NCBI RefSeq assembly: GCF_001484605.1
Contig: NZ_CP013747.1
Coordinates: 1 to 64,000 of the forward strand
Length of the DNA stretch: 64,000 nt
Source: Pseudarthrobacter sulfonivorans
GTDB taxonomy: Bacteria; Actinomycetota; Actinomycetes; Actinomycetales; Micrococcaceae
Reading direction: 5' to 3'
Shown here: positions 12,219-30,526 of the stretch, piece after piece
Layout: each line of letters begins with the position of its first letter
How positions within the stretch are numbered: position 1 is the first letter of the stretch
Notes under the pieces: model-generated
Database searches by the model: none
What the model saw: the letters and a program-made list of their open reading frames with translations, nothing else
What the model was told of the DNA's origin: nothing
Program-made: the position numbers and the translations under genes

Positions 12219-13199
12219 CTATCGCCGAAGGCTTTCAGACGGCAGCTCGCCAAACGTGTCGAGGTAGAGAGCCGAGAATCGGCCCTGGTGCGAGAAACCG
12301 CAGCGCTCGGCGATCGAAATAATGGTCTCCTGCCCGGGCCCCGCCGCAAGGAGCATTTCCCGGGCCCGATCCAGCCGAACCCTCCTCAGCAGCTCCGACG
12401 GCGTTGCCCCTACTTCGGAGCGAAGGGCCAACTGGAGGGTGCGCACCGAAACTCCTAGATTCTCAGCTATGTCCGGCACTGCGAGCTCCTCGGAAGCGTG
12501 ACGTTCAAGGAGGTCACGGAACCGTCGGATCAATCGGCTCTCCGAATCCGGATTGAGTCCTTCTTCCTTCACGGTCGTGTTGTCCATTGCCATGAGCAGT
12601 CGCGACAGCATGGTGTCCACGAGGAGCCTTTGGACAAAGACGGGAGCGGCGCTTGAGGCCTGACTGATCATGTCGTCATGCAGTTCGACGACGGATCTCA
12701 GGAATGCCCGCCCCGCCGAACCGGTGAGGTCCATGGCGTAGCCGAGCTTCACGTCCCGCGACTTGTTCCCATAGAGCTGTTCGGCCACCGAAGCAAGCGC
12801 CAGGCGCCTCACATAAACAATCAAATGGGGGGTGCCAATATCCCACGTCATCGAAAAGGGGCGGTCGACCGGCGGAACCGTTGCCGTCCTGGGGCTGGAT
12901 TCGACCGCGGTTGAGCCCACGTCCATGTGCGCATGACCGGCGAGGGGGATCTGGACCAGGTGGAAGTTCTCCAAGCCCTGGGGATTAATGCGGACTTCCG
13001 CGCCGTAGTCGAGATACTCGATCCCGACGTCGCCCCGATGGAGGGACCGCAGTTTCATGTCCACAGACTTGGCACGGGCCTGCGGAACCAGATCATGGCC
13101 ACAGAACAACTCGGCAATCTTCTGGTGGGCATCATCGACATCCGTGGTGGCCACGGTGGGGCGGCCCCTCAAGACGTCGCGCGGGAGGATCCTCACCAT
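12219..13199 (-). CDS. AraC-family transcriptional regulator
   Basis: A 326-residue protein. The C-terminal ~100 residues are a double helix-turn-helix of AraC type: LAVPDIAENLGVSVRTLQLA, then ATPSELLRRVRLDRAREMLL, and ISIAERCGFSHQGRFSALY. The N-terminal ~200 residues look like the AraC_binding_2 (cupin-like) ligand domain of activators such as FeaR and XylS. Regulators of this type usually activate an adjacent catabolic operon in response to its substrate. It is divergent from the SDR/StyA operon starting at 13.3 kb, with a 14-bp palindrome (13300-13313) in the shared promoter region. Indole or an oxidised indole is the likely signal; this is inference. Confidence 0.9.
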   Translation of the reverse strand: MVRILPRDVLRGRPTVATTDVDDAHQKIAELFCGHDLVPQARAKSVDMKLRSLHRGDVGIEYLDYGAEVRINPQGLENFHLVQIPLAGHAHMDVGSTAVESSPRTATVPPVDRPFSMTWDIGTPHLIVYVRRLALASVAEQLYGNKSRDVKLGYAMDLTGSAGRAFLRSVVELHDDMISQASSAAPVFVQRLLVDTMLSRLLMAMDNTTVKEEGLNPDSESRLIRRFRDLLERHASEELAVPDIAENLGVSVRTLQLALRSEVGATPSELLRRVRLDRAREMLLAAGPGQETIISIAERCGFSHQGRFSALYLDTFGELPSESLRR

Positions 13200-13299
13200 C
13201 GCGCACCTGACTTCCCCGGTTTTCGTATTTCGGATGAGCCCTGCGCCAACTGGATATACCGGTTTTCAGGGTGTGAATAGAGTCACTTTTAGAACAAGT

Positions 13300-13313
13300 A
13301 TGACGCACGTCAT
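13300..13313. promoter_or_regulatory. 14-bp palindrome between AraC gene and SDR/StyA operon
   Basis: ATGACGCACGTCAT is a perfect inverted repeat (6-2-6). It lies about 100 bases from the araC-type start codon and 43 bases before the first small gene of the operon, a suitable place for an operator. Which protein binds is not known. Confidence 0.4.
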
Positions 13314-13355: not shown

Positions 13356-13442
13356 ATGAAGAACGTCAAGCTCGTACACGAACGGCGCATGGAATGGGAA
13401 CGGACTCACTCGAAGCCCGCACACAGGCCCGCCGCCAAGTAG
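13356..13442 (+). CDS. Candidate microprotein 1 (28 residues)
   Basis: ATG to TAG, 28 codons, with AAGGGG about nine bases upstream. The product is basic and contains WERTHSKPAHRP. The same pattern, WEQTHPEPAPRP, occurs in the second small gene at 14321-14464, and the DNA after both blocks is alike (TAGCCACTCCC in each), so the two genes are related by duplication. This copy precedes the SDR gene by 78 bases. I do not know the family. It could be a leader peptide or a small partner protein of the operon's enzymes; nothing in the sequence decides this. Confidence 0.5.
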   Translation: MKNVKLVHERRMEWERTHSKPAHRPAAK

Positions 13443-13520: not shown

Positions 13521-14315
13521 ATGTCAGGACTCAAAGGCAGGACCGCAATCGTCACCGGCGGCGTAACCAAGATCGGCCGCGGCGTAGTCGCGGCGCTGCA
13601 CGAGGCAGGTGCCGCCGTCGTCGTTGCCGACATCGATGCAGACGGAGGCGCCGAACTCCACACCCTGGGCGACGGCGTCAGCTTTTCGCACACGGACATC
13701 ACGGATGACTCGGCCGTCTCCCGCCTGATGGGTGACACCGCAGCATCGCACGGCGGCATCGATATCCTCGTGAACCTGGCCTGCACCTACAAAGACGACG
13801 GGGCGGCGTCCGACCGGAACGATTGGCTCGAAGCACTGAACGTCAACGTCGTGAGCGCAGTTATGGCAAGCAGGGCCGCGCGACCCTACCTGAAAGCGTC
13901 GCAGCGCGGAGCCATTATTAACTTCACCTCGATTTCCAGTTCCGTCGCCCAGACAGGGCGCTGGCTCTACCCCGCGGGCAAGGCCGCGCTCGTCCAGCTG
14001 ACCCGGAGCATGGCAATGGATTTCGCCGAAGACCGCATCCGTGTCAACTCGGTCAGCCCGGGATGGGTGTGGAGCAACATCATGGACTCGCTGACCAATG
14101 GGGACCTTGAAAAAACAGATGCCGTGGCGGCACCCTTCCACGTTCTGAAGAGGGTTGGACGGCCGGAAGAGATCGGAGCCGTCGTTGCCTTCCTCGCCAG
14201 CGACGCGGCCAGCTTTGTGACCGGCGCTGATTGGGCGGTCGACGGCGGGTACTCCGCCTTGGGGCCGGAACGCGCCGAGGAAACCATTCCCTTACTCGCC
14301 GCTGAAAAGAGGTGA
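13521..14315 (+). CDS. Short-chain dehydrogenase/reductase
   Basis: A 264-residue classical SDR. The NAD(P)-binding loop is TGGVTKIGRG (normal spacing, GIG altered to KIG). The usual NNAG is NLAC, the catalytic Ser is in FTSISSS, and the Tyr/Lys pair is YPAGK. The C-terminal ASFVTGADWAVDGGY is typical. Start at ATG 13521 with CGAAAGG eight bases upstream. As the first enzyme gene before the monooxygenases it could oxidise a cis-dihydrodiol or hydroxyindole, as proposed for the SDR of known indole (iif) clusters; that role is inference. The next gene starts five bases after the stop. Confidence 0.9.
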   Translation: MSGLKGRTAIVTGGVTKIGRGVVAALHEAGAAVVVADIDADGGAELHTLGDGVSFSHTDITDDSAVSRLMGDTAASHGGIDILVNLACTYKDDGAASDRNDWLEALNVNVVSAVMASRAARPYLKASQRGAIINFTSISSSVAQTGRWLYPAGKAALVQLTRSMAMDFAEDRIRVNSVSPGWVWSNIMDSLTNGDLEKTDAVAAPFHVLKRVGRPEEIGAVVAFLASDAASFVTGADWAVDGGYSALGPERAEETIPLLAAEKR

Positions 14316-14320
14316 CGATA

Positions 14321-14464
14321 ATGAACGACTTCAAAACCGTCCACACGGGCCTCCCCGGATGGGAACAAACCCACCCCGAACCCGCCCCAAGGCCGGGTCA
14401 AATAGCCACTCCCCCATTCATTCACGGATGCCGAGACAGTAGAAAGACAAGGGCAACAACATGA
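14321..14464 (+). CDS. Candidate microprotein 2 (47 residues), overlaps StyA1-like gene
   Basis: ATG 14321 has a strong GAGGTG site seven bases upstream. The 47-codon frame ends with TGA sharing ATGA with the start of the StyA1-like gene (14461), so the two are translationally coupled. The N-terminal part contains TVHTGLPGWEQTHPEP and APRPGQ, related to microprotein 1. The C-terminal part (FIHGCRDSRKTRATT) has no counterpart there: a two-base difference removes the TAG that ends copy 1 from the frame. Coupling to the oxygenase start argues that the gene is translated. Function unknown; it may act as a coupling leader or as a small subunit. Confidence 0.6.
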   Translation: MNDFKTVHTGLPGWEQTHPEPAPRPGQIATPPFIHGCRDSRKTRATT

Positions 14465-15702
14465 CACAACGCCACATCACCATCATCGGAGCGGGGCAAT
14501 CCGGCCTGCAACTGGGCATTGGTTTGCTCAAAGCAGGCTTCGCGGTGACCACAATATCCAACCGCACCGCCGAAGAAATCCACGAAGGCAAGGTCTCCTC
14601 CAGCCAGTGCATCTTCCACAACGCACTGGAACATGAGAGGGCGCTCGGCCTGGACTTCTGGCCCGAGGCTCCTACGGTGGATGGAATCTCCTTCACGATC
14701 CCGAACCCTGACGTCGCCGGGCAGAAGGCCATCAGCTGGGCGTCCCGCCTCGACAACCCGGCAATGTCCATTGACCAACGCGTCAAATTCCCCCGGTTCA
14801 TGGAGGAGTTTGTGGCCCAGGGAGGCGAGCTCGTGTTCGAGGACGCCGGCGTCGAGGAGCTCGAGCGCTACGCCCTGAACTCCGACCTGGTCATTGTGGC
14901 CGCCGGCAAGGGAGAAATTGCACAGCTCTTCACCCGCGACGCCGAGCGCAGCGCCTACGACGCACCCCAACGTGCCCTGGCCCTGACATACGTGAACGGA
15001 ATGGAACCCAGGGAGGAACATTCGGCCGTTTCCTTCAACCTGATTCCGGGGGTCGGCGAATACTTCGCTTTCCCCGCCCTCACCACAACCGGCCCCTGCG
15101 AGATCATGGTTTTTGAAGGCATCCCCGGCGGGCCCATGGACTGCTGGAAGGGCCTGACGCACGCGGAACACCTGGAAACGTCCAAGAGCATCCTGAAGCA
15201 GTACCTGCCGTGGGAGGCCAGCCGCGCCGCCGACGTCGAACTGACCGATCCGAACGGCTTCCTGCAAGGCCGCTTTGCCCCGACCGTTCGGCATCCCATT
15301 GCCACCCTGCCCAGCGGCCGGAACGTCCTGGGCCTTGCCGACGTCGTTGTCCTCAACGACCCCATCACCGGCCAGGGCTCCAACAACGCCAGCAAATGCG
15401 CGGCCTCGTACCTGCAGAGCATCAAGGACAACGGCGAAGCCTCCTTCGACGCCAAATTCATGCAGGACACTTTCGAAACCTATTGGAACTACGCCCGGCA
15501 CGTGGCCCATTGGACCAACGCCCTGCTGGCTCCCCCGCCGCCGCACGTTCTTGAACTCCTGGGAGCCGCCGGCCAGTCAGCCGAAATCGCCCACCGCTTC
15601 GCCAACGGTTTCAACAACCCGCCGGACTTCCAGGAATGGTTCATGTACCCCGATAAGGCAGCTGCGTACCTGGCAAGCGTGAAATCCGTGGCGGCGTCCT
15701 GA
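14461..15702 (+). CDS. styA1: StyA1-like flavin-dependent indole/styrene monooxygenase
   Basis: A 413-residue group E flavoprotein monooxygenase. The FAD Rossmann loop is IIGAGQSG at residues 8-15, the DLVIVAAGKGEI strand and QGSNNASKCA FAD-site loop are present, and the fold matches StyA along its length. Group E enzymes epoxidise styrene or indole with reduced FAD from a partner reductase. From memory of the published fingerprints, styrene enzymes have Asn-Val-His at StyA positions 46/48/50 and indole enzymes Ser-Gln-Met; here the segment is SSQCI (residues 47-51), the indole type with Ile for Met. There is no separate reductase gene, so reduced FAD must come from the next gene or elsewhere. 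Overlaps microprotein 2 by four bases. Confidence 0.88.
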   Translation: MTQRHITIIGAGQSGLQLGIGLLKAGFAVTTISNRTAEEIHEGKVSSSQCIFHNALEHERALGLDFWPEAPTVDGISFTIPNPDVAGQKAISWASRLDNPAMSIDQRVKFPRFMEEFVAQGGELVFEDAGVEELERYALNSDLVIVAAGKGEIAQLFTRDAERSAYDAPQRALALTYVNGMEPREEHSAVSFNLIPGVGEYFAFPALTTTGPCEIMVFEGIPGGPMDCWKGLTHAEHLETSKSILKQYLPWEASRAADVELTDPNGFLQGRFAPTVRHPIATLPSGRNVLGLADVVVLNDPITGQGSNNASKCAASYLQSIKDNGEASFDAKFMQDTFETYWNYARHVAHWTNALLAPPPPHVLELLGAAGQSAEIAHRFANGFNNPPDFQEWFMYPDKAAAYLASVKSVAAS

Positions 15703-15752
15703 GTGCCGCTCCATCTCCCCAGGCAGAGAACTCCTTCGAAGAAAGCCGTAAG

Positions 15753-17501
15753 ATGCGAAAGATTGCAATAATCGGAGCCGGTGAATCCGGCGCCCAACTG
15801 GCCTTGGGCCTGCAACGGGAGGGGTACGCCATTACCCTGTTCTCCGACCGGTCGGCGGCCCAGATCCGTACCGGCAAGGTCATGTCCAGCCAATGCATGT
15901 TTGCTACCGCGCTCGCCGCGGAAGCCGAGCTGAGTTCAGCTCTGACCCACCTCTATGACGATGCAGCTGTTCCGGGGATTAACTCCATACGGCTGCGTGT
16001 TGAGGGTGAACGCGCGGCCGACGCCATCGAGTGGGAAGCGCCCCTGGAGGGCACCGCACGTTCAGTTGACCAGCGGATCAAAAGTGCCGCCTGGATAGAA
16101 GCCTTCGTAGCCGGAGGCGGTGATTTCCGGATTGAGAAAGTCACCCCGCGCATGCTGGAGGAACTCTCGCGCGACTACGAACTCGTCATTGTCAGCACCG
16201 GCAAGGGAGAGATCGGCCAAATCTTCCCCAAAGACAGGTCCAAGTCGCCTTTCGACCGGCCCCAACGAGTCCTCGCACTGAACTACGTCTCGCTGGATGC
16301 GCCGGGCGGAGAGCAGGCCGGGCAGCCCATTGACAGCATTCGCATGTCCGCCGTGTCCGGCGTCGGGGAGTTCTTTACCTTTCCCGGGCTGACCGTATCC
16401 GGGCCATGCCAGATGATGGTCTTTGAAGGCGCCGTTGGCGGCCCGATGGACAGATGGGCCGACGTAGCAAGCCCGGACGAGCAGCTGAGCCGCTCGCTGG
16501 AAATTCTGGAAGAGCATTTTCCGCATGAGGCGAAAAACTTCGCCCACGCAAGACTCACCGATGACGGAGCCACCCTCCTTGGCCGGATCACCCCCACTGT
16601 CCGGTCCGCCGTGGGCGAGCTGGGCAACGGCAATCTCGTGTTCGGACTCGGAGACGCGGTGCTGCTCAATGATCCGCTGACCGGGCAGGGCTCCAACAAT
16701 GCGACGTTGGCTTCCCGCTACTATCTTGACTCCATCGTCCGCCGGGGGCAGCAGCCTTTCGACAAGCAGTGGATGGAACGTACCTTCGACGAGTTCTGGC
16801 GCGGTTGGGGACAGTGGGCTGTGGCATGGACCAACGACATGCTCAAACCCCGGAGGGAGCACCAGCGCTCAGTGCTGGCCGAAGCAGCGCAGCACCCGGC
16901 GCTGGCCGCCAGCATCGCGGGCGGCTTCGATGATCCGCGCACGTTCTACCCCTGGTGGTTCGATCCTGCTGCTGCTGCCGAGTTTGTGCAGGCCCAGAAA
17001 GACGAAGAATCAGCGGCCTTTGACCTGAAGGACTTCAGGGCCGCCCTGGGACAATTCGCGACCGGCGTCACTGTGGTCACCACGTTGGGTGTCGACGGAC
17101 GAAAGGTGGGCATGACCGCCAATTCCTTCACGTCCGTTTCGATGGAACCCCCGCTGGTTTTGTGGTGCCCCAGCAAACGGGCGCCAAGCCTTCCTGACTT
17201 CGAGGAATCCACGCATTTCGCCATCAACGTCCTCGCCAGCGACCAGCACGTGCTGTCACGGCAGTTCGCCACCCCGTCAACCGACAAGTTTGCCGGGGCG
17301 GAAACATCGGAGGGAATTGCCGGGATTCCGCTGCTGGACGGCGCAGTGGCCACCTTCCAGTGCCGGACGGTATCCCGCCACGACGCCGGTGACCATGTCA
17401 TCTACGTCGGCGAGATCGAGAAATACGAGAACACCGGCGGGGCTCCCCTGGTGTTCCATGCCGGCAAGTACCACGCAACGGCCAGCCATCCGGACTTCTG
17501 A
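15753..17501 (+). CDS. styA2B: StyA2B-like monooxygenase fused to a flavin reductase
   Basis: A 582-residue fusion. Residues 1-~415 are a second StyA-type oxygenase (IIGAGESG at 6-13, SSQCMF at 45-50 with the Ser-Gln-Met indole fingerprint, GQGSNNATLA near 310). Residues ~425-582 are a flavin reductase of the HpaC/StyB type: FRAALGQFATGVTVVTT, VGMTANSFTSVSMEPPLV and FHAGKYH. Such self-sufficient fusions are known in Rhodococcus opacus 1CP and relatives as StyA2B, where the fusion supplies reduced FAD to itself and to StyA1. The gene follows StyA1 by 50 bases, giving the same pair arrangement. Product is likely indole 2,3-epoxide leading on to oxindole or isatin-type compounds. Confidence 0.92.
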   Translation: MRKIAIIGAGESGAQLALGLQREGYAITLFSDRSAAQIRTGKVMSSQCMFATALAAEAELSSALTHLYDDAAVPGINSIRLRVEGERAADAIEWEAPLEGTARSVDQRIKSAAWIEAFVAGGGDFRIEKVTPRMLEELSRDYELVIVSTGKGEIGQIFPKDRSKSPFDRPQRVLALNYVSLDAPGGEQAGQPIDSIRMSAVSGVGEFFTFPGLTVSGPCQMMVFEGAVGGPMDRWADVASPDEQLSRSLEILEEHFPHEAKNFAHARLTDDGATLLGRITPTVRSAVGELGNGNLVFGLGDAVLLNDPLTGQGSNNATLASRYYLDSIVRRGQQPFDKQWMERTFDEFWRGWGQWAVAWTNDMLKPRREHQRSVLAEAAQHPALAASIAGGFDDPRTFYPWWFDPAAAAEFVQAQKDEESAAFDLKDFRAALGQFATGVTVVTTLGVDGRKVGMTANSFTSVSMEPPLVLWCPSKRAPSLPDFEESTHFAINVLASDQHVLSRQFATPSTDKFAGAETSEGIAGIPLLDGAVATFQCRTVSRHDAGDHVIYVGEIEKYENTGGAPLVFHAGKYHATASHPDF

Positions 17502-17517
17502 GAGGACGGAGCGCCCC

Positions 17518-19095
17518 ATGGACGATTCGACCGACATTGCGATTATTGGTTCAGGGATCAACTCCCTGGTGGCTGCTGCGGAGCTGGCGATGGCCGGGAA
17601 GCGCGTCTGCCTCATTGAACGGGCCGACAGGCTCGGCGGCTTCATCCATTCAGGAGAACGGACCTTGCCCGGCTTCATCCACGATTCCTTCTCCTCCTGG
17701 CACCCCTTGTTCGTTTCGGGAGGCGCTTACCAGGCGTTGGGAAGCGAGCTGCATGCCAGGGGTTTGGAATATTGCAACGCCGACGGCGCCGTGACAGCCA
17801 GCGTGGCTGCCGACCCGAGGACAGGCAGCCCCCGGGTCGTCGTTGCCCATCGCGATCCGGTGCACACGGCTTCGGCTTTGCAGGCACGCGGGGATGAAGG
17901 CGCGTACCTGGCGATGCTGGAGGACCTCGGCCGCAATGCCGGCACGATTTTCGGTGCGTTCGGCGCCGAACTGCGATCTTTCAGGGAAGTCGTGAAGATT
18001 GCCGCCGGCGCCCTGAGGCGTGGGAAAGTCAAGGGGACCGAGGCCTTCGTACGGGATTCCGTGATGAGCGGCCGCAACTACCTCCGCAGCCGGTTCGACG
18101 GATGGGAAGCCGATCAGCTGTGGTCCCCGTGGCTCCTTCATGCCGGCCTCGGTCCAGACCAGGCAACGGGCGGCGTTATGCTTCCGGTCATGGCCTTGAG
18201 CATGCATAGCTATGGCCTCCCGGTGGTGAAAGGCGGGGCATCGAACTTCGTTTCGGCTTTTGAGGCCCTCCTGCTGGATAACGGCGTGCGGATCATGCTG
18301 GGCACGGACGCTGAGGAAATACTCGTCGACTCCAAGGGGGCAACGGGTGTTAAAACCTCCCGCGGCCTCGTCAGCGCCCGGACTGTCCTGGCCAACGTGT
18401 CTCCCCAGGCCCTGTACTCCAGGCTGTTGCGCCTGCCACCGGCCGGGACGGCCGACGCGGCGGCGCGCTATCAGAACGGCCGCGGGGCGATGCAGATCCA
18501 TCTGGCCCTGGGCAGGCCGGTCCAATGGCTGGATCCCCGCCTGGATTCGGTGCCCCTGATTCACCTGAGCAACGGTTCCGACAGCACAGGAATTGCCTGC
18601 GCCCAAGCTGAGGCGGGCCTGCTGCCAACGGAACCCACCGTCGTCGTCGGTCAGCAGTGCGTCCTCGATCCGTCCAGGGCACCCGCGGGCAAAGCCACAC
18701 TGTGGCTGCAGTTGCAGGAAGTGCCGTTCGCACCGGCGGGCGACGCAGCAGGTGTGCTCAAGGTGGACGGTGGCTGGACCCGGGAGCTCAAAGAACAGTA
18801 CATGGAGCGTGTCCTGGCCAGGCTCGAACAGTTTGCACCGGGAACGCGGGATTCCGTTTTGGCCTGGGACATCCTGGCGCCGACCGATCTTGCCGCGGAG
18901 AATCCTAATGCCGTGAAGGGCGATCCCTATGGTGGATCTGCAGAACTCTTCCAGAACCTCCTCTGGCGCCCCTTCCCCGAGGCCGCCAACCACAGAACCC
19001 CGGTCAAGGGCCTGTGGCACATCGGCGCGTCCACCCACCCCGGCCCCGGACTGTCCGGCGGCTCGGGCCATTTGGTGGCCCAAAAACTGAAATGA
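17518..19095 (+). CDS. FAD-dependent oxidoreductase of the phytoene-desaturase type
   Basis: A 525-residue protein with an N-terminal dinucleotide-binding loop (IIGSGINSLVAAAELA near residue 9) and the following IERADRLGG acidic strand end, as in CrtI/amine-oxidase-like flavoproteins. The C-terminal FAD motif is GLWHIGASTHPGPGLSGGSG. Members isomerise or dehydrogenate many substrates, so the reaction cannot be read from the family. In this operon it could oxidise a hydroxyindoline or dioxindole intermediate to isatin. That is inference from position between the oxygenases and the isatin-hydrolase-like gene. Start ATG 17518, with GAGGACGGAG 8-16 bases upstream. Confidence 0.85.
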   Translation: MDDSTDIAIIGSGINSLVAAAELAMAGKRVCLIERADRLGGFIHSGERTLPGFIHDSFSSWHPLFVSGGAYQALGSELHARGLEYCNADGAVTASVAADPRTGSPRVVVAHRDPVHTASALQARGDEGAYLAMLEDLGRNAGTIFGAFGAELRSFREVVKIAAGALRRGKVKGTEAFVRDSVMSGRNYLRSRFDGWEADQLWSPWLLHAGLGPDQATGGVMLPVMALSMHSYGLPVVKGGASNFVSAFEALLLDNGVRIMLGTDAEEILVDSKGATGVKTSRGLVSARTVLANVSPQALYSRLLRLPPAGTADAAARYQNGRGAMQIHLALGRPVQWLDPRLDSVPLIHLSNGSDSTGIACAQAEAGLLPTEPTVVVGQQCVLDPSRAPAGKATLWLQLQEVPFAPAGDAAGVLKVDGGWTRELKEQYMERVLARLEQFAPGTRDSVLAWDILAPTDLAAENPNAVKGDPYGGSAELFQNLLWRPFPEAANHRTPVKGLWHIGASTHPGPGLSGGSGHLVAQKLK

Positions 19096-19123
19096 ATCCA
19101 CGCATCTACCCGACAGGAGAACA

Positions 19124-19918
19124 ATGTCTGTTCTAAACGGGCTCACCGCAGCCCTGTCAGCCGGCGTCATCGAAGTCGTCGACCTCACCACGCCGCTCAG
19201 CCGTGACACACCGATCCTGAACCTTCCGCAACCACTCGCCAACACGGTTGGACTCACGCTTACCCCGGTGAGCAACTTCGACGACGCCGGGCCCGCCTGG
19301 GCCTGGAACGACGTCACTGTGGGAGAGCACGCCGGCACCCACCTTGACGCCCCCGTCCACTGGATCACGGGACGGGACGGAAAATCCGTGGACCAGATCG
19401 AGCCGCATCGCCTGGTCGGGCCGGCGGTAGTGATCGACAAGACCGCCGAGGCCGCCCGGAACCCGGACTTCCTGCTGGAGCCGGAACATTTCGAGCAGTG
19501 GCAGCAGGACCATGGCCCGTTCCCGGCGAACTGCTGGGTGATCTTCCGGACCGGCTGGTCCGCCCGCGGCGGTAACGCTGCGGACTTCATGAACGCTGAC
19601 GACGCCGGTCCCCACACTCCCGGTGTCTCCGCGGCAGGTGCCAAATGGCTTGCCGGGAACGCCTCCATCAGCGGCTTCGGGGTGGAAACCGTCGGCATCG
19701 ACGCCGGGCAAGCCGCCACGCTCGACCCCATGTTCCCCGTGCATTCATTCCTTCTCGGCGCAGACAAATACGGGCTCACGTCGCTCCGGAACGTTGATCG
19801 CCTCCCCGTCACCGGCGCGACGCTGGTGGTTGCACCCCTGCCAATCGTGGGCGGAACCGGTAGCCCCAGCCGCGTGTACGCCTTGGTTGAGAACGCAGCA
19901 TCGGAGGAGGGCGCATGA
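19124..19918 (+). CDS. Cyclase-family metal hydrolase, isatin-hydrolase-like
   Basis: A 264-residue member of the cyclase/kynurenine-formamidase superfamily. The metal-binding signature is VGEHAGTHLDAPVHW (HxGTHxDxP) near residue 68. The family includes kynurenine formamidase and the Mn-dependent isatin hydrolase, which opens isatin to isatinate. Position right after indole-type oxygenases and before a benzoylformate-decarboxylase-like enzyme favours isatin as substrate. An alternative is a dioxindole ring-opening role such as that of IifA in Acinetobacter indole degradation, whose family I cannot recall with certainty. The stop overlaps the next start by four bases (ATGA). Confidence 0.85.
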   Translation: MSVLNGLTAALSAGVIEVVDLTTPLSRDTPILNLPQPLANTVGLTLTPVSNFDDAGPAWAWNDVTVGEHAGTHLDAPVHWITGRDGKSVDQIEPHRLVGPAVVIDKTAEAARNPDFLLEPEHFEQWQQDHGPFPANCWVIFRTGWSARGGNAADFMNADDAGPHTPGVSAAGAKWLAGNASISGFGVETVGIDAGQAATLDPMFPVHSFLLGADKYGLTSLRNVDRLPVTGATLVVAPLPIVGGTGSPSRVYALVENAASEEGA

Positions 19919-21662: not shown

Positions 21663-21711
21663 TTGCTTAATTTGATGCGACGTTCACAGCTTTGCTTAAT
21701 TTGATGCGACG
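21663..21711. repeat. 20-bp direct repeat at the paaX stop codon
   Basis: TTGCTTAATTTGATGCGACG occurs twice (21663-21682 and 21692-21711) with nine bases between. The inner copy contains the paaX stop codon and its last codons; the outer copy duplicates them downstream, giving a second in-register-looking stop segment. It looks like a short local duplication. Confidence 0.8.
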
Positions 21712-23447: not shown

Positions 23448-23455
23448 CGCGAAGA

Positions 23456-23507
23456 AACCCCCGGCGACGCCTCCGCCCCCATCGGGCAGACACGGTCACC
23501 GGGGGTT
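23456..23507. terminator. Terminator between convergent thioesterase and RidA-like genes
   Basis: AACCCCCGG pairs with CCGGGGGTT around a 34-base loop, with further pairing of GAC and GTC inside. It ends nine bases after the thioesterase stop and could act for both strands. Confidence 0.6.
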
Positions 23508-23559
23508 CCCTTCCCCCAAACCAAACCTCCCGCCGTCGGGAGCCTGTACTCTGTGGACG

Positions 23560-23961
23560 CTACTGGCGGTCCTGGACCACGGCGATCCCCTGGATCTCGA
23601 TCATGGCTTCCTTCTGCCAGAGTCGGGTGACGCCGATTCCGGCCATGGCCGGATATTCCGAACCCGCCATTTCACGCCAAATCCGCCCGATCTCCCTGCC
23701 GTTCGCCATGTAGTCATCCACATCGGTCAGGTAGATGGTGACGCTCACCAGGTCCTCCGGCTGCCCGCCCGCCGCCCGCAGAGTGGTCAAAACGTTCGAA
23801 AACGCCTGCCTGAACTGCTCCACAATGCCCCCGGGAACAATCTCCATATCGCCGTTCAGTGCGGTCTGGCCGCCCAGGTACACCGCATTCCCGGCAAGGA
23901 TCCCATGGGCATAACCGGATGGCTCGGGCAGGGACTCGGGGTTGACTGTCTTCTTGCTCAT
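23560..23961 (-). CDS. RidA-family (YjgF/YER057c) protein without the catalytic Arg
   Basis: A 133-residue RidA-fold protein: YAHGILAGNAVYLGGQTALN, FSNVLTTLRAAGGQPEDLVS and VTIYLTDVDDY are the family blocks. True RidA deaminates reactive enamines/imines using an Arg in the P-A-R-(T/S) segment. Here the aligned segment is YPAMAGIGVTRL, with Met in place of that Arg, so it belongs to the Arg-lacking Rid subgroups often found in catabolic clusters. The ring reduction product of 2-aminobenzoyl-CoA is a 2-amino-cyclohexene, an enamine, which makes an imine/enamine-handling role plausible. It is divergent from the FAH operon with site c between them. Confidence 0.85.
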   Translation of the reverse strand: MSKKTVNPESLPEPSGYAHGILAGNAVYLGGQTALNGDMEIVPGGIVEQFRQAFSNVLTTLRAAGGQPEDLVSVTIYLTDVDDYMANGREIGRIWREMAGSEYPAMAGIGVTRLWQKEAMIEIQGIAVVQDRQ

Positions 23962-24048
23962 GATGCTCCTCGCGAAGTCGGCTCTTGATTCTGTTTGAAA
24001 AGGCCCCTTGTTAGGGTCCTTGGCGTCGTGCTACCTTGAGCATATGTG

Positions 24049-24065
24049 ACGACCGTAAAAAAGTC
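24049..24065 (+). promoter_or_regulatory. Candidate PaaX operator, site c
   Basis: ACGACCGTAAAAAAGTC, preceded by GTG as in site b and followed by GACATAT. It is the weakest of the four. It lies between the RidA-like gene and the FAH operon, 30 bases before the FAH start codon. Confidence 0.4.
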
Positions 24066-24095
24066 GACATATCAAAAACGAAGGGAATCACACGG

Positions 24096-25010
24096 ATGAA
24101 ACTGGCCACACTCCGCACCGGCGGAGACGCTACGACGGCGGCCCTCGGCTTCGGCGCCGATGCCTTCCTGCCGCTGCCCTACCCAAGTGTGGGTGCACTC
24201 CTGGCCGATCCCGCGTGGCGGGCCGTTGTCGAAGCAGCTGCCGCGGCGGCGACCGGCCCCGCCGGTTCACTGGCGGATGCCGCGACGATCGAGGCCCGCA
24301 ACGCCGAATTTGCCCCTCTGGTGCCCAACGCCGGGAAAGTCATCTGCTGCGGGTTGAACTATGGCGACCACATCCAGGAGATGGGCAGGAACCTGCCCGA
24401 CTACCCCACCCTCTTTGCCAAGCACGCGGACACGCTTACCGGTGCCCACGACACCATCGAAGTCCGGGGCAGCGTGAAAGTCGACTGGGAAGCTGAACTC
24501 GCCGTCGTCGTGGGCAGTCCCCTTTTCCGGGCGGATGAAGACCAGGCGCGACAGGCCATCGCCGGTTACACCGTGGCCAATGACCTTTCCATGCGCGACT
24601 GGCAGAACCGCACCCTGCAGTGGTTCCAGGGAAAGGCCTTCGACGCGACAACCCCGGTGGGACCCGTCCTGGTCACAGCTGACGACGTGAGCGGGGACTT
24701 CGAGGTCCGCGGATACGTCAACGGCGAGCTGGTGCAGTCAGGGAACACGGGAACGCTGGTCTTCGGCCCGGCCCGGCTCCTGTCCTACATTTCGCAGTTC
24801 ACCAAACTTCGCCCCGGGGACCTCGTCCTCACGGGCACGCCAGGGGGAGTCGGGATGGGCATGACCCCTCCCCGGTTCCTGCAGGACGGAGACGTCCTGA
24901 CCACCGAGATAGCAGGCATCGGACGGCTGGAAAACACAATCCGCATCCACACCAACGACGACGCAGCCGCCCCGCGCCCCGTCGTCGCCACCACAACCAC
25001 CAAGGAGTAA
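24096..25010 (+). CDS. Fumarylacetoacetate-hydrolase-family enzyme
   Basis: A 304-residue FAH-superfamily protein. The catalytic region is VICCGLNYGDHIQEMG, the metal-binding residues lie in VDWEAELAVVVG (Glu-x-Glu) and VANDLSMRDWQ (Asp), and the C-terminal block is LRPGDLVLTGTPGGVGMGM. Members hydrolyse C-C bonds of beta-diketones, hydrate dienoates or decarboxylate oxoacids. After ring reduction and deamination of 2-aminobenzoyl-CoA a 1,3-dicarbonyl would form, a fit for C-C cleavage; this is inference. ATG 24096 has a GAAGGGA site ten bases upstream. First gene of a five-gene operon to 30526. Confidence 0.9.
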   Translation: MKLATLRTGGDATTAALGFGADAFLPLPYPSVGALLADPAWRAVVEAAAAAATGPAGSLADAATIEARNAEFAPLVPNAGKVICCGLNYGDHIQEMGRNLPDYPTLFAKHADTLTGAHDTIEVRGSVKVDWEAELAVVVGSPLFRADEDQARQAIAGYTVANDLSMRDWQNRTLQWFQGKAFDATTPVGPVLVTADDVSGDFEVRGYVNGELVQSGNTGTLVFGPARLLSYISQFTKLRPGDLVLTGTPGGVGMGMTPPRFLQDGDVLTTEIAGIGRLENTIRIHTNDDAAAPRPVVATTTTKE

Positions 25011-25015
25011 AGACC

Positions 25016-25504
25016 ATGACCGAGCTGACTGAGACCACCCAGTACCGCACCGAGGGAGACAACTCCATCTACGCCGGCGCCGACGGCAAAGTTGTTCCCG
25101 TTGTCACCCGGGCCGGGCAGGAAGACACCAACACGGCACAGTCCGGCGACTGCATCCGCGTATCCGGCGTTTCCATCCAGCACACCCCAGCCACCAAGAT
25201 CTGGTTCGGACAGGTATCCAACACCCCGGGCTACCGCTCGCTCCCCCACCACCACGGCGAAGCCGAAACCGGCGGCTACGTCCTGCGCGGCCACGGCCGC
25301 ATCTACTACGGCGAAAACTACTCCGAATACAAGGACATGAAAGCCGGAGACTGGGTCTTCGTCCCCCCGTTCATGCCACACGTTGAAGCAAACATGTCCG
25401 TCACCGAAGAACTCGTCTGGCTCACCACCCGCACGCCGGAAAACATCGTGGTCAACCTCGAGGACGTTCCGGATGACACCCTCGCCGACTACCGGCGCGC
25501 ATAA
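25016..25504 (+). CDS. Cupin-domain protein
   Basis: A 162-residue single cupin. Motif 1 is seen as SLPHHHGEAETGGYVLRGHG, with the His pair and Glu that bind a metal, and motif 2 as GDWVFVPPFMPHVEANM with Pro and the last His. Small cupins in aromatic clusters act as dioxygenases, isomerases or uncharacterised helpers, so no reaction is assigned. It starts five bases after the FAH stop and ends four bases before tesB, so it is translated in the same operon. Confidence 0.85.
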   Translation: MTELTETTQYRTEGDNSIYAGADGKVVPVVTRAGQEDTNTAQSGDCIRVSGVSIQHTPATKIWFGQVSNTPGYRSLPHHHGEAETGGYVLRGHGRIYYGENYSEYKDMKAGDWVFVPPFMPHVEANMSVTEELVWLTTRTPENIVVNLEDVPDDTLADYRRA

Positions 25505-25508
25505 CGCC

Positions 25509-26426
25509 ATGAACATCCCCGCCTCCGCCCCCACGATTACCTCCGCAACGTTTCTGCGCGCCATCGAATTGACACAGGTCCCGGCCCTGGTCCACGACGA
25601 AGCGTATGAGGCTGTCACGCAGTACGTTCCCTGGCCCAAGGCCTATGGCGGAGACATGGTCGCCCAATCAGCTGCCGCAATGATGCGTTCAGTTGACGGG
25701 GACCGGTCCCTGCACTCCATGCACAGCTACTTCATGCGCCCGGTGGATGTGGGATCAACTGTCCGGTACGAAGTGGAACACCTCCGTGATGGCCGCGGCT
25801 ACTCCACCCGCAGCGTCCGCGGATACCAGAACGGCAAAACCGTCTTCGTAGCAATGGGTTCCTTCCAGGTTCCCGAAGACGGGGCCGACTACCAGCCCGT
25901 TACGCCCGGACAAGCCAGCGCCACTGAAATCGACCCGGAATCACTGCGCAGTGCCGCAGAAGTCCTTCAGGACGTCAATGGCCCTGCCGCCGAGTACTGG
26001 TCCACAGGACGCAGCTTCGACATGCGCCACGTCCCCGGCCCCGTTTACATTGAGGTGGAAGGCGGACGCGAGGCACACCAGGCCATCTGGGTGAAAGCCT
26101 TCGACGAACTGCCGTGCACCGGGGACCGGCAACTGGACGCCAACCTGCACCGCGTCGCCCTGGCCTACGTTTGCGACTACACCATCCTGGAGCCCCTCCT
26201 CAGGGCCCAGGGCCTGCACTGGTCCTCCCCCGGGCTCACGACGGCCAGCCTGGACCATTCCATGTGGTTCCACCGCGACGGCCGCGCAGATGAATGGGTG
26301 CTGTACGCACAAAAAGCAGTCTCCGGTCAAAGCAACAGAGGCATGGCCCTTGGCCACTTCTTCGACCGCGAAGGCCGCCTGCTCGCCACCGTCGCCCAAG
26401 AGGGCATGATCCGGCCTGGATCCTAA
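25509..26426 (+). CDS. tesB: Acyl-CoA thioesterase II (TesB type)
   Basis: A 305-residue double-hotdog protein. N-terminal hotdog: YVPWPKAYGGDMVAQSAAAM and HSYFMRPVDVGSTVRYEVE with RGYSTRSVRGYQNG; C-terminal hotdog: ALAYVCDYTILEPL, SLDHSMWFHRD and GRLLATVAQEGMIR. The TesB Asp-Thr/Ser-Gln type triad maps to the C-terminal domain. Such enzymes hydrolyse a broad range of acyl-CoA. This is the second thioesterase of the cluster. Start ATG 25509, four bases after the cupin stop. Confidence 0.9.
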   Translation: MNIPASAPTITSATFLRAIELTQVPALVHDEAYEAVTQYVPWPKAYGGDMVAQSAAAMMRSVDGDRSLHSMHSYFMRPVDVGSTVRYEVEHLRDGRGYSTRSVRGYQNGKTVFVAMGSFQVPEDGADYQPVTPGQASATEIDPESLRSAAEVLQDVNGPAAEYWSTGRSFDMRHVPGPVYIEVEGGREAHQAIWVKAFDELPCTGDRQLDANLHRVALAYVCDYTILEPLLRAQGLHWSSPGLTTASLDHSMWFHRDGRADEWVLYAQKAVSGQSNRGMALGHFFDREGRLLATVAQEGMIRPGS

Positions 26427-26463
26427 TCCGACATCAGAATTACGAATCATAGAAGGAGTGGCC

Positions 26464-28116
26464 ATGAGTACATCGGCCCATGTGGACACATTTACGCGGG
26501 ACCACCTACCACCGGCAACGACGTGGCCGGCCCTTGAGTTCACCCTCCCGGAACTCCAGTACCCCGAACAGCTGAATGCAGCGGCCGTGCTGATCGATGA
26601 CACCGTTGCCCACTACGGTGCCGACCGGCCGGCGCTCCGCACGCCCGACGACGAGGTCTGGACTTACGGCGAACTGCAGCTTCGGGCCAATCAGGCGGCC
26701 CAAGTGCTCACCGAGGATTTCGGCGTGGTTCCGGGCAACCGCGTGATGCTCCGGGGACCCAACAACCCGTGGATTGTCGCAGCCTGGCTGGGCGTGCTCA
26801 AAGCAGGTGCCGTCGTCGTCACCACCATGCCGATGCTGCGGGCCGCCGAGATCCAGACACTGATCCAGCTGACCAAGCCTGTCGTGGCGATCTCCGACCA
26901 CCGTTTCCTGGACGACCTAGCCGCCGCTGCGGGCGCCGGCGTTGCCGTCATCGCCTATGGAGGCACGGGCACCGGAGATTTCGCCGCCCGCTGCTCCGAA
27001 AAGAGCGGAAACTTCACCACCATTGCAACGGCAGCAGACGACGTCGCGATACTGGGGCCCACCTCCGGCACCACCGGCGCCCCCAAGATCACCATGCATT
27101 TCCACCGGGACATCCTGGCGATCGCCGACACCTTTGGCCGCCACATCCTCCAGCCCACAGCCGAGGACGTCTTCGCGGGCTCGCCGCCGGTCGCATTCAC
27201 CTTCGGGCTCGGCGGCCTGGTCATCTTTCCCCTCCGTTTTGGGGCCTCCGCGCTCCTTACTGAGCGCGCAGCGCCCGTCGAACTGGCAGAGAACGCGGCT
27301 GCGGCCGGTGCATCGATCCTCTTCACGGCACCCACTGCCTACAGGGCAATCCTCAAGGCCGGGCGCGGTGACCTGCTCAGCCGGCTGAGGGTCGCTGTCT
27401 CTGCGGGCGAACACCTGCCCAAGGAAACCTGGCAGGCTGTCTACGATGCCACCGGGGTCCGGTTGGTCAACGGCATCGGAGCCACGGAAATGCTCCACGT
27501 GTTCATCTCGGCAACCGGCGATGACAGCCGGCCCGGCGCAACGGGCAAGGCCGTCCCCGGATTCCGGGCGACCATTCTCGACGAGGACGGCTCCGAATTG
27601 GGCCCGAACCAGCCCGGCAGGCTTGCCGTCCTGGGACCCACCGGCTGCCGCTACCTCGATGACGAACGCCAATCCCGGTACGTCGCCCACGGATGGAACA
27701 TCACCGGCGACACCTTCACCAGGGACGAGGACGGCTACTTCGTCTACCAGTCCCGCTCCGATGACATGATCGTTTCCTCCGGCTACAACATTGGCGCCCC
27801 GGAGGTGGAAGCCGCCATCAATCAGCACCCCGACGTCCTGGAGAGTGCCGTCGTCGGGCGGCCGGACCCGGAGCGCGGAACCGTAGTCTGTGCCTTCATC
27901 GTCCTTCGCGAAGACGTCGACGGCGACGAGGCCAAGCGCAAGGAAATCCAGGACTTCGTCAAGCAAACGATCGCCCCGTACAAGTATCCGCGCGATGTCC
28001 GGTTTGTTGCTGAACTGCCGCGCAACCCCAGCGGGAAGCTGCAGCACTTCAAGCTGCGGCAAATCCTCGAAAACAACAACGACCAGCTGGCCCACGCGGC
28101 AGCACCCCAGGCCTAG
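26464..28116 (+). CDS. abmG: 2-aminobenzoate-CoA ligase (AMP-forming)
   Basis: A 550-residue ANL-superfamily ligase of the benzoate-CoA ligase type. The P-loop is GPTSGTTGAPKITMHFH, the A5 motif NGIGATEMLHVFIS, the A7 region GDTFTRDEDGYFVYQSRSDD and the C-terminal lysine is in NPSGKLQHFKL. The GIGATEMLHVF and MHFHRD segments are the forms seen in benzoate/2-aminobenzoate ligases. The gene directly precedes the 2-aminobenzoyl-CoA monooxygenase/reductase, as in Azoarcus evansii, which makes anthranilate the best substrate. The frame is open from a GTG at 26458, but the AAGGAG site places the start at ATG 26464. Confidence 0.9.
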   Translation: MSTSAHVDTFTRDHLPPATTWPALEFTLPELQYPEQLNAAAVLIDDTVAHYGADRPALRTPDDEVWTYGELQLRANQAAQVLTEDFGVVPGNRVMLRGPNNPWIVAAWLGVLKAGAVVVTTMPMLRAAEIQTLIQLTKPVVAISDHRFLDDLAAAAGAGVAVIAYGGTGTGDFAARCSEKSGNFTTIATAADDVAILGPTSGTTGAPKITMHFHRDILAIADTFGRHILQPTAEDVFAGSPPVAFTFGLGGLVIFPLRFGASALLTERAAPVELAENAAAAGASILFTAPTAYRAILKAGRGDLLSRLRVAVSAGEHLPKETWQAVYDATGVRLVNGIGATEMLHVFISATGDDSRPGATGKAVPGFRATILDEDGSELGPNQPGRLAVLGPTGCRYLDDERQSRYVAHGWNITGDTFTRDEDGYFVYQSRSDDMIVSSGYNIGAPEVEAAINQHPDVLESAVVGRPDPERGTVVCAFIVLREDVDGDEAKRKEIQDFVKQTIAPYKYPRDVRFVAELPRNPSGKLQHFKLRQILENNNDQLAHAAAPQA

Positions 28117-28129
28117 AAGGGACCGATCC

Positions 28130-30526
28130 ATGAAGATCGCAATCGTCGGAGGCGGCCCCGGAGGCCTGTACTTCGCAGCACTGATGAAGCAGCTCGACCC
28201 GTCACACAACATCACACTCTGGGAACGCAACGCCGCCACGGACACCTTTGGTTTCGGCGTCGTGTTCTCCGATGAAACCCTAGGCGGCATCGGCAACGCC
28301 GATCCCGTGGTTGCCGAATACATGAGCCGCCGCTTCGCCCGCTGGTCGGACATCGACATCCACTTCCGCGGAGAGGCCGTGACCGTGGGCGGCCAGGGGT
28401 TCGCTGCCATGAGCCGCAAGGAACTGCTGGAACTGCTGCAGCGCCGCTGCATCGAACTCAACGTCGACGTGCGGTTCAGCACCGTTGCTCCGCCGATCGA
28501 GGAACTCGAGGCCGGCTACGATCTTGTGCTGGCCGCGGATGGCGTCAACTCGCAGATCCGGGCCAAGTACGCCGACTCCTTCCAGCCCGACCTGGACCCC
28601 CGCACCAACAAGTTCATGTGGCTCGGGACGGACCAGGTGTTCGAGGCCTTCAAGTTCTTCGTGAAGGAAACCGAGTGGGGCGTCATGCAGATCCACGGCT
28701 ACCCGTACTCGGATGAGGGTTCAACGTTCATCGTGGAAATGCACGAGGACGTCTGGCACGCGGCGGGCTTCGACGAGACCGCCAACGAGGCCTTCCCCCC
28801 AGGGGTCTCGGACGAAAAGGCGATCGCCAAGGTCCGCTCGATTTTCGCCGAGGAACTGGACGGCTACGAGGTGCTGTCCAACAACTCCAAGTGGATCAAC
28901 TTCACCACTGTCCGCAACGAGAGCTGGCGCCACAACAATGTGGTGTTGCTCGGCGACGCCGCCCACACCGCTCACTTCTCCATCGGTTCCGGCACCAAGC
29001 TCGCCATGGAGGACTCGCTGGCCCTGGCCGCCTGCCTGCACGAGCACCCGGATGTTGAGTCGGCATTGGTGGCCTACGAGGCCGAGCGCCGGCCCGTGGT
29101 CGCTTCCACGCAGCGTGCAGCGCAGGCTTCGCTGGAGTGGTTCGAGCGCATCGGCCAGTACAAGGACCAGGATCCCACGCAGTTCGCCTTCAACCTGCTC
29201 ACCCGCAGCCGCCGCATCACGCAGGAAAACCTGCGCCTCCGCGACCCCGGGTTCGCCGACGCCGTGGACCGCGACTTCGCCGCATCCCAGGGCCTCGCCG
29301 AGGTTGCACCGGCCATGTTCCAGCCGTACCGCATCGGCGGGCTGGAGCTGAAGAACCGCATTGTGGTCTCTCCGATGGACATGTACTCAGCCGTGGACGG
29401 CATCCCCGGCGACTTCCACAAGGTCCACCTCGGATCCAAGGCACTCGGCGGTGCCGGCCTGGTCATGACCGAAATGGTCTGTGTTTCTGAAGCCGGCCGC
29501 ATCACCCCCGGCTGCAGCGGGCTATACACGGACGGCCAGCGCGATAGCTGGAAGGAGATCGTGGACTTCGTTCACAGCCGTTCAACCGCCAAGATCGGCG
29601 CCCAACTGGGCCACTCGGGCCGCAAGGGCTCCACCAAGCTCATGTGGGAAGGCATGGACCAGCCACTCGAGTCCGGCAACTGGTCCACGGTGGGCCCTTC
29701 GGCTCTGCCGTACGGTCCTGACAACCAGACCCCCGCTGAGCTGGACCGGGCGGGCATGGACGCCATCAAGGCTGAGTTCGTCGCCTCGACCCTCCGCGCC
29801 GGGCAGGCAGGTTTCGACCTCCTCGAAATCCACGCCGCCCATGGCTACCTGCTGTCTTCCTTCCTTTCGCCGGTCTCCAACAAGCGGACCGACGAATACA
29901 GCGGCAGCCTGGAGAACCGGCTGCGGTTCCCGCTGGAAGTGTTCGACGCCGTCCGCGCGGCGTGGCCTGCCAGCAAGCCTGTGACGGTACGCATCTCCGC
30001 CACAGACTGGATCGAGGGCGGCAACACCTCCGACGATTCGGTCGAAATTGCCCGGGCCTTCGTCGCCCACGGTGCTGCCGGCCTGGACATCTCCACTGGC
30101 CAGATTGCCAAGGAAGAAAAGCCGGCCTTCGGCCGCAGCTACCAGACGCCGTTCGCCGACCGTATCCGCCAGGAAGTTGCCGCGCCGGCAGGCGTGGCCG
30201 TGATCGCCGTCGGCGCCATCTCCACGTACGACGACGTCAATTCCGTCCTGCTTGCGGGCCGGGCCGACCTCGTGGCACTGGGCCGTACGCACCTGTACGA
30301 CCCGCAGTGGACACTGCATGCGGCCGCCGAACAGGAATACCACGGCCCCGGCGCCCAGTGGATTCCCCAGTTCAGGGCGGGTCGCCGCAAGCCACCGAGC
30401 TCCCGCACCGATGCCGTGCGGCCCCGTCTGTCCCTCCTGCGGGAGCCGGACGCCGAGGCAACACCGGCGCACCTCCGCTGGACACCCGACACCTTGGCCA
30501 AGGAACCCTCCCTGCTTCCGCAGTAG
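28130..30526 (+). CDS. abmA: 2-aminobenzoyl-CoA monooxygenase/reductase
   Basis: A 798-residue two-domain flavoenzyme. Residues 1-~395 are a class A flavin monooxygenase: IVGGGPGGLYFAALMKQL at the N-terminus, LVLAADGVNSQIR, and VVLLGDAAHTAHFSIGSG. Residues ~398-760 are an Old-Yellow-Enzyme/dienoyl-CoA-reductase-like barrel: FQPYRIGGLELKNRIVVSPM, QLGHSGRKG, EIHAAHGYLLSSFLSP and RTDEYSGSLENR. This fusion is the hallmark of the enzyme that hydroxylates and then reduces the ring of 2-aminobenzoyl-CoA, giving a non-aromatic 2-amino-5-oxocyclohexene-carboxyl-CoA. The start is ATG 28130, 14 bases after the ligase. It ends the operon, closed by the hairpin 30539-30581. Confidence 0.94.
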   Translation: MKIAIVGGGPGGLYFAALMKQLDPSHNITLWERNAATDTFGFGVVFSDETLGGIGNADPVVAEYMSRRFARWSDIDIHFRGEAVTVGGQGFAAMSRKELLELLQRRCIELNVDVRFSTVAPPIEELEAGYDLVLAADGVNSQIRAKYADSFQPDLDPRTNKFMWLGTDQVFEAFKFFVKETEWGVMQIHGYPYSDEGSTFIVEMHEDVWHAAGFDETANEAFPPGVSDEKAIAKVRSIFAEELDGYEVLSNNSKWINFTTVRNESWRHNNVVLLGDAAHTAHFSIGSGTKLAMEDSLALAACLHEHPDVESALVAYEAERRPVVASTQRAAQASLEWFERIGQYKDQDPTQFAFNLLTRSRRITQENLRLRDPGFADAVDRDFAASQGLAEVAPAMFQPYRIGGLELKNRIVVSPMDMYSAVDGIPGDFHKVHLGSKALGGAGLVMTEMVCVSEAGRITPGCSGLYTDGQRDSWKEIVDFVHSRSTAKIGAQLGHSGRKGSTKLMWEGMDQPLESGNWSTVGPSALPYGPDNQTPAELDRAGMDAIKAEFVASTLRAGQAGFDLLEIHAAHGYLLSSFLSPVSNKRTDEYSGSLENRLRFPLEVFDAVRAAWPASKPVTVRISATDWIEGGNTSDDSVEIARAFVAHGAAGLDISTGQIAKEEKPAFGRSYQTPFADRIRQEVAAPAGVAVIAVGAISTYDDVNSVLLAGRADLVALGRTHLYDPQWTLHAAAEQEYHGPGAQWIPQFRAGRRKPPSSRTDAVRPRLSLLREPDAEATPAHLRWTPDTLAKEPSLLPQ

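Follow-up and report, generated by a model that had tools for sequence, protein, structure and literature searches.

Bases 1-64000 of the 5.04-Mb contig of Pseudarthrobacter sulfonivorans (genome 5.06 Mb), hereafter the window, contain a gene island that probably encodes the catabolism of indole via isatin into anthraniloyl-coenzyme A (CoA) metabolism, judging from the sequences of its products. It comprises an upper module (13521-21591) and a lower module (22998-30526). A sequence-only reading of the same DNA had proposed that an upper pathway of the indole type supplies an anthranilate-CoA pathway, that isatin and isatinate are its probable intermediates and that a thiamine diphosphate (ThDP) enzyme acts on isatinate. 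This proposal is supported by gene families, gene order and co-distribution. All the gene families it named were recovered in Pfam, NCBIfam and PDB searches where it had placed them. Its description as one island holds in that the genes are adjacent, but a PaaX regulator gene on the minus strand divides them into two modules; its gene order was largely correct, except that the short-chain dehydrogenase/reductase (SDR) gene stands before the oxygenases; and its list, correct for the genes it contained, omitted seven (AraC, PaaX, 4HBT, Rid, FAH, cupin and TesB).

Reading frames were picked by the GC content at codon positions, then scanned against Pfam and NCBIfam and searched against PDB sequences. 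The complete order is major facilitator superfamily (MFS) transporter (minus), AraC (minus), SDR, IndA1, IndA2B, FAD oxidoreductase, cyclase, ThDP enzyme, PaaX (minus), 4HBT, Rid (minus), FAH, cupin, TesB, CoA ligase, 2-aminobenzoyl-CoA monooxygenase/reductase (ACMR), PntA, PntB and adenylate kinase. The two modules and their regulators are as follows, with identities to pAL1 of Arthrobacter Rue61a where available.

12219-13199, minus strand: AraC-family regulator, divergent from the upper operon (Pfam, synteny; top NCBIfam model AndR at 141 bits, below its cut-off of 350)
13521-14315, plus strand: SDR dehydrogenase with a putative IifB-like role, ATG at 13521 (Pfam, NCBIfam, PDB search)
14461-15702, plus strand: IndA1, group E flavoprotein monooxygenase of indole type (Pfam, PDB search)
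15753-17501, plus strand: IndA2B, monooxygenase-flavin reductase fusion (Pfam, NCBIfam)
17518-19095, plus strand: FAD oxidoreductase of the CrtI/CrtO/amine-oxidase superfamily, role suggested by position (Pfam, NCBIfam, PDB search)
19124-19918, plus strand: isatin-hydrolase-like cyclase, PF04199 (Pfam, PDB search, motifs)
19915-21591, plus strand: ThDP enzyme proposed for the isatinate-to-anthranilate step, its gene sharing a 4-base overlap with the cyclase gene (Pfam, NCBIfam, PDB search)
21696-22556, minus strand: PaaX-family regulator (Pfam; NCBIfam PaaX at 146 bits, below its cut-off of 264.55; 79% and 70% to the two PaaX proteins of pAL1)
22998-23447, plus strand: 4HBT thioesterase (Pfam, pAL1 comparison)
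23560-23961, minus strand: Rid-family imine/enamine deaminase (Pfam, pAL1 comparison)
24036-25010, plus strand: FAH-family hydrolase (Pfam, pAL1 comparison)
25016-25504, plus strand: cupin (94% to pAL1, the top identity among the shared genes)
25509-26426, plus strand: TesB-type acyl-CoA thioesterase (Pfam, pAL1 comparison)
26458-28116, plus strand: 2-aminobenzoate (anthranilate)-CoA ligase (Pfam, NCBIfam; 81% to the pAL1 ligase)
28130-30526, plus strand: ACMR, an FAD hydroxylase with an old-yellow-enzyme domain (Pfam, NCBIfam, PDB search; 84% to pAL1)

In the proposed route, IndA1 and IndA2B would convert indole by epoxidation to indole-2,3-oxide or the dihydrodiol, and the SDR would lead to 3-hydroxyindolin-2-one (dioxindole); both steps are proposed because characterised relatives are found in other bacteria. 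The FAD oxidoreductase would convert dioxindole to isatin, the cyclase would hydrolyse isatin to isatinate, and the ThDP enzyme would strip the alpha-keto carboxyl, with oxidation straight to anthranilate being likelier than passage through free 2-aminobenzaldehyde. The ligase would then form anthraniloyl-CoA, and the AMP released would be recycled by the adenylate kinase. This step is supported since a close homologue is active, and the one between the ligase and Rid is supported by the CoA esters found in Rue61a. Rid would hydrolyse the enamine to cyclohexanedione-carboxyl-CoA, and FAH, the cupin and the thioesterases would complete ring opening. We infer the FAD oxidoreductase, cyclase, ThDP, Rid and ring-opening steps from family, position and co-distribution.

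The best PDB match of IndA1 was 7z4x with 576 bits, compared to 136 bits for the styrene monooxygenase 3ihm. We take 7z4x to be an indole monooxygenase, its entry title naming only a putative dehydrogenase/oxygenase subunit. By these scores, IndA1 is much nearer to the indole-type enzymes than to the styrene monooxygenases. In IndA2B, the Smoa_sbd (residues 150-260) and Flavin_Reduct (433-576) Pfam domains lie within one protein, a reductase fusion that adds to the oxygenase families of the earlier reading. Pfam matched no cofactor-independent oxygenase IifA in the upper operon. A profile search of the entire genome with PF16155, presumably the IifA family, gave no match either, but as the control genomes likewise gave none, the negative extends to the upper operon only. 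For the IndA1/IndA2B system of Rhodococcus opacus, a role in indole degradation is stated and styrene gave no induction (PMC13101518).

The four top PDB matches of the cyclase are all isatin hydrolases (E values of 3.7e-78 to 3.2e-69), whereas the next cyclase follows at 3.2e-32. Its sole NCBIfam match, arylformamidase, reached 31.5 bits against a cut-off of 223. The isatin hydrolase metal motif HxG[T/A]HxDxPxH (PMC6117287) is present in the cyclase and in all 98 matches that were aligned from the 104 loci supplied, and the aromatic pocket motif WXW/FXW appears here as WAW. As far as PDB matches and these two motifs go, the enzyme is what the sequence-only reading had called it.

For the conversion of isatinate to anthranilate, the ThDP enzyme is a good candidate. 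It had been described as benzoylformate-decarboxylase-like, but that family was ruled out by score, as PRK07092, with its cut-off of 493, reached only 152 bits. Benzoylformate decarboxylase is also missing from the 50 rows listed in each of two structural comparisons, an absence that carries no weight on its own. All the listed models in fact stayed below their cut-offs, including sulfoacetaldehyde acetyltransferase with 242 bits. In an alignment with E. coli PoxB, the GFSS segment, which we take to be FAD-binding in PoxB, is in register, and its third and fourth residues vary within the family. PoxB and non-FAD enzymes score nearly equally in structural comparisons. A ThDP protein of Arthrobacter Rue61a is 85% identical to that of the window.

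The conversion of 2-aminobenzaldehyde to anthranilate had been pointed out as the missing step. The window indeed contains no aldehyde dehydrogenase (ALDH), the nearest listed one being at 67.3 kb, but the step may not exist at all, as relatives hardly ever have a linked ALDH. An ALDH match was found in 3 of the 80 named loci (the best 80 of 583 confirmed ThDP-homologue loci, a sample that leans to close relatives), in none of 20 distant loci (widened from a phylum sample of 26 non-own ThDP loci) and in one of 20 stretches taken from 15 genomes within the genus; the annotation of the Deinococcus plasmid operon described below lists none. On R. erythropolis pLRE138, an ALDH lies about 7 kb downstream of the cyclase-ThDP pair, among other genes. 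Given this near absence of a linked ALDH, the ThDP enzyme may make anthranilate directly, and the odds lean modestly towards direct oxidation.

A route that is identical except at this step, in which the ThDP enzyme is a plain decarboxylase and an unlinked ALDH oxidises the resulting 2-aminobenzaldehyde, is plausible, and we give it somewhat less than even credence. The genome has 34 PF00171 matches, 33 of them above the cut-off, so an unlinked ALDH is available, and the nearest structural and sequence relatives of the ThDP enzyme include non-oxidative enzymes. However, the rarity of linkage just described speaks against this alternative, and an aldehyde as reactive as 2-aminobenzaldehyde should call for a dedicated partner enzyme. 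With direct oxidation as the preferred course, we tentatively put forward, with more doubt than confidence, that the ThDP protein founds a new family of isatinate-oxidising decarboxylases (isatinate to anthranilate). Its partners would be a separate branch of cyclases, with GLTS, GITS, GLTQ and similar signatures instead of GLQC or GLAS, and the two genes would form a portable cassette that, in Actinomycetota and Deinococcota, joins indole- or auxin-type upper pathways to anthraniloyl-CoA lower pathways.

Two Rhodococcus-type loci (L245, 5168-7507, and L270, 4747-6354) have an FMO-like monooxygenase (PF00743) in place of IndA between the SDR and the FAD oxidoreductase. Since this enzyme takes the IndA position, it suggests that the core consists of SDR, FAD oxidoreductase, cyclase and ThDP enzyme, and that the first oxygenase is exchangeable. 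The same exchange would fit an upper module made for another indolic substrate, such as skatole, indole-3-acetate or a substituted indole, with isatin or a similar keto-lactam reached only partly. Group E enzymes are reported to accept styrene, indole and skatole (PMC13101512). The cyclase pocket motif also differs among relatives: WxW (WAW here, WYW elsewhere) occurs in 56 of the 98 aligned proteins, and the remainder have mostly WKH or WRH. As the pocket varies while the metal motif is constant, some of the relatives may act on other substrates. Nevertheless, we consider a different substrate unlikely for this island. IndA1 is nearest to an indole-type enzyme, skatole enzymes being at most 40% identical to the reported styrene and indole oxygenases (PMC13101512), and the gene order suits unsubstituted indole with no extra steps needed.

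In Arthrobacter sp. ISL-65 (L196, L179), the match to the FAD oxidoreductase is split into two parts that lie in different frames, which may reflect either a broken gene or an error in the sequence.

The lower module has a close counterpart on pAL1, which carries PaaX, Rid, FAH, cupin, TesB, ligase, ACMR, a second PaaX and a hotdog protein, 65-94% identical to those of the window. The entire pAL1-type set (PaaX, Rid, FAH, cupin, TesB, ligase, ACMR and 4HBT) is present here, and an adenylate kinase homologue (65%) adjoins the pAL1 module as well, at L281:7428-7991, where the annotation table has no gene. The pAL1 module differs in that it follows quinaldine degradation, has the second PaaX and carries 4HBT on the other side, whereas the window module has PntAB in addition. 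Two anthranilate-CoA ligases of Rue61a were active in E. coli extracts (PMC3534580), the activity of the pAL1 ligase being assigned via locus tags matched by gene order. The 81% identity to this ligase supports anthranilate as the predicted substrate of the window enzyme. In Rue61a cells grown on anthranilate, anthraniloyl-CoA was found together with CoA esters of C7H7NO3 and C7H8O4. The C7H8O4 ester may be cyclohexanedione-carboxyl-CoA, which would result from loss of the amino group (PMC3534580). The same paper ties the StyA1/StyA2B-like genes of Rue61a to styrene and, in its available parts, makes no link to indole.

ACMR combines FAD_binding_3 and Oxidored_FMN in one protein (PRK08255, 1219 bits, cut-off 1078), and the NCBI name of its family is salicylyl-CoA 5-hydroxylase. 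This name, together with thioesterases, a cupin and FAH of the kinds to be expected, would also fit a gentisate-like lower path, in which a thioesterase frees 5-hydroxyanthranilate, and the cupin and FAH cleave it. Such a path is improbable, as Rue61a with the same pAL1 gene set converts 5-hydroxyanthranilate only cometabolically and grows neither on it nor on gentisate (PMC3534580), and as the reductase domain has been kept in ACMR.

The linkage between the modules was examined in 206 genomes of the genus. The cyclase is found in 60 of them and an IndA1 match in 50 (only fragmentary in two, G133 and G158), 49 of which also have the cyclase. ACMR, counted as present at a best E value of 0 with weaker single-domain matches left uncounted, occurs in 80 genomes: in all 60 that have the cyclase and in 20 of the 146 that do not, each genome being treated as independent regardless of kinship. 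The cyclase and ACMR lie within 20 kb of each other in 24 of the 60, this strain among them, and in more than one orientation (L176 versus L184, L187 and L193). In G008, G023, G033 and G034, the series AraC-SDR-IndA1-IndA2B-FAD oxidoreductase-cyclase-ThDP is kept as a single block, and the 40 kb retrieved from each of these genomes include no lower module. Relatives thus preserve the upper operon as a unit, and the cyclase and ACMR occur together in 60 of 60 genomes, so the association is not due to chance.

It is likewise improbable that the modules are independent and merely neighbours, the lower one taking anthranilate from any source: the 20 genomes with ACMR alone, the 36 of 60 in which the two genes are more than 20 kb apart or on separate contigs and the role of the pAL1 module in quinaldine degradation would allow it, but ACMR accompanies every cyclase, often closely and in several orientations, and a downstream module that is always present belongs to the route even when it lies apart.

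Other strains also carry the joined cluster. At the ThDP locus, close named relatives belong to Arthrobacter, Paenarthrobacter and Pseudarthrobacter. The cyclase lies less than 400 bases from the ThDP gene in 75 of the 80 named loci (five on the opposite strand), and the five loci without it (L210, L212, L213, L215 and L230) all have ACMR and the ligase. In these five, the ThDP homologue (69-74%) is directly beside the anthranilate-CoA module and an MFS transporter. In the phylum sample, 21 of the 26 loci have the cyclase, some of the remainder being interrupted by contig ends; both ligase and ACMR are present in six of the 20 widened loci (L127, L130, L134, L137, L139 and L143), and the ligase alone in L135. 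A Deinococcus psychrotolerans plasmid (L277:845-11069) carries on one strand ACMR, SDR, MarR, enoyl-CoA hydratase, acyl-CoA dehydrogenase, ligase, cyclase, ThDP enzyme and Rid. Plasmid homologues outside Actinomycetota and Deinococcota are more loosely linked: in Agrobacterium pusense, the ThDP gene and a GLQC-type cyclase gene are on opposite strands, about 4 kb apart, and in Bosea vaviloviae no cyclase is annotated near the ThDP homologue.

Several observations weigh against an indole route through isatin. The function of every protein of the island is read from sequence, and the co-occurrence figures carry no correction for relatedness. In place of the GLQC or GLAS signature published for isatin hydrolases, the cyclase carries the variant GLTS, retaining the S of GLAS, and GLQC occurs in just one of the 98 aligned matches. 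For this reason the enzyme is called isatin-hydrolase-like, and its hydrolysis of isatin is putative. IndA1 homologues, 48-65% identical, occur in 65 of 393 other genomes of the class, and 20 of these 65 were fetched with about 8 kb per side except at contig ends. These 20 neighbourhoods contain no cyclase or FAD oxidoreductase match, two ThDP matches of merely 26-29% identity, an AraC homologue (33-38%) in six cases and a reductase match in five. The partnership of the upper operon is therefore not general to IndA1, the role of which may be different outside the genus. Some ThDP homologues adjoin ACMR without a cyclase, so isatinate is not necessarily the substrate of them all. Arthrobacter sp. 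SPG yields other indole products (PMC4274814), and isatin is regarded as a dead end in Acinetobacter O153 (PMC6221969). The inability of Rue61a to grow on 5-hydroxyanthranilate or gentisate limits the guesses for the ring-opening step. Finally, a catechol branch is possible: the anthranilate 1,2-dioxygenase model TIGR03228 has two matches in the genome, both below the cut-off of 672, a ring-hydroxylating oxygenase reaching 421 bits.

Among known systems, the Azoarcus evansii clusters carry, as we understand them, beta-oxidation-type genes; none are found among the Pfam matches of the lower module, and the Deinococcus operon with its enoyl-CoA hydratase and acyl-CoA dehydrogenase is Azoarcus-like. 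The aerobic 2-aminobenzoyl-CoA pathway of A. evansii shares the ligase and the fused monooxygenase/reductase with the window (described in PMC3534580). Cupriavidus sp. SHE forms isatin, isatic acid and anthranilate from indole, and its 2-aminobenzoyl-CoA cluster is vital for anthranilate degradation (PMC6221969). Its upper genes are of the iif/ind type, whereas the FAD oxidoreductase, isatin-hydrolase-like cyclase and ThDP enzyme are found here instead, in an actinobacterium. The iif system of Acinetobacter sp. O153 shares the group E indole monooxygenase, flavin reductase and SDR at its start and has anthranilate as product (PMC6221969, PMC12538310). Rhodococcus opacus 1CP has the same monooxygenase pair with the reductase fusion, and the available parts of its accounts name no isatin hydrolase or ThDP partner (PMC13101518, PMC6165268). 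Indole-3-acetate breakdown via isatin (iad of Bradyrhizobium and Variovorax) starts from auxin and uses other oxygenases. Arthrobacter strain B1 is listed as making isatin and anthranilic acid (PMC6221969).

The joined cluster is thus a new combination of known parts. The sequence-only reading was aware of each half by itself but of no actinobacterium that joins them; the lower half had been reported in Arthrobacter Rue61a (PMC3534580), and the overall route was already tied to Cupriavidus SHE. What is new is a set of candidate genes for carrying isatin to anthranilate, and its setting; we recognised no publication in the open-licence literature that describes this set. A review leaves open whether aerobic indole degradation truly passes through isatin and states that no iif gene handles isatin (PMC6221969), and the genes for each step of auxin breakdown via isatin were unidentified before the work of a 2025 preprint (PMC12633357). 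The cluster supplies concrete candidates for the isatin steps in the FAD oxidoreductase, the cyclase and the ThDP enzyme, and offers a single-locus route for the removal of indole, an odorous pollutant and signal molecule.

The remaining features of the island are its flanking genes and three micro-ORFs.

10780-12087, minus strand: MFS transporter, aromatic acid/H+ symport-like (Pfam; NCBIfam 2A0115 at 305 bits, below its cut-off of 418.55)
13356-13442, plus strand: conserved 28-residue micro-ORF ahead of the SDR gene (no Pfam match)
14321-14464, plus strand: 47-residue micro-ORF with an N-terminus like the 28-residue peptide (no Pfam match)
22667-22807, minus strand: conserved 46-residue micro-ORF between PaaX and the lower module (pAL1 counterpart ARUE_RS24355)
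30545-33660, plus strand: PntA and PntB transhydrogenase, starting 18 bases after ACMR (Pfam, NCBIfam)
33756-34379, plus strand: adenylate kinase paralogue, proposed for AMP recycling (Pfam, NCBIfam)

The transporter probably belongs to the island, and its gene adjoins the AraC gene in L176, L180, L183, L196 and L269 too. PntAB is a probable part as well; it follows ACMR also in G136 (L024) and is absent there in most of the other relatives compared. The adenylate kinase is probably the last gene of the island downstream. The micro-ORFs on either side of the SDR gene are alike over 25 residues, with V-H in the first half and W-E-x-T-H in the second. In searches of 53 stretches, some of which share a genome, the 28-residue one was matched in 20 (E below 1e-4), ten of which have a copy at the second position, and the 46-residue one, with a conserved C-terminal half, was matched in 14, pAL1 included. 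An Rfam scan of positions 10000-36000 gave no match. Elsewhere in the window, a group II intron reverse transcriptase/maturase is encoded near the start (3000-4418, plus strand), and the genes after the island (36340-46793), namely a ROK regulator, a solute-binding protein, permease genes and a GFO/IDH/MocA oxidoreductase, resemble a carbohydrate operon with no relation to the island.

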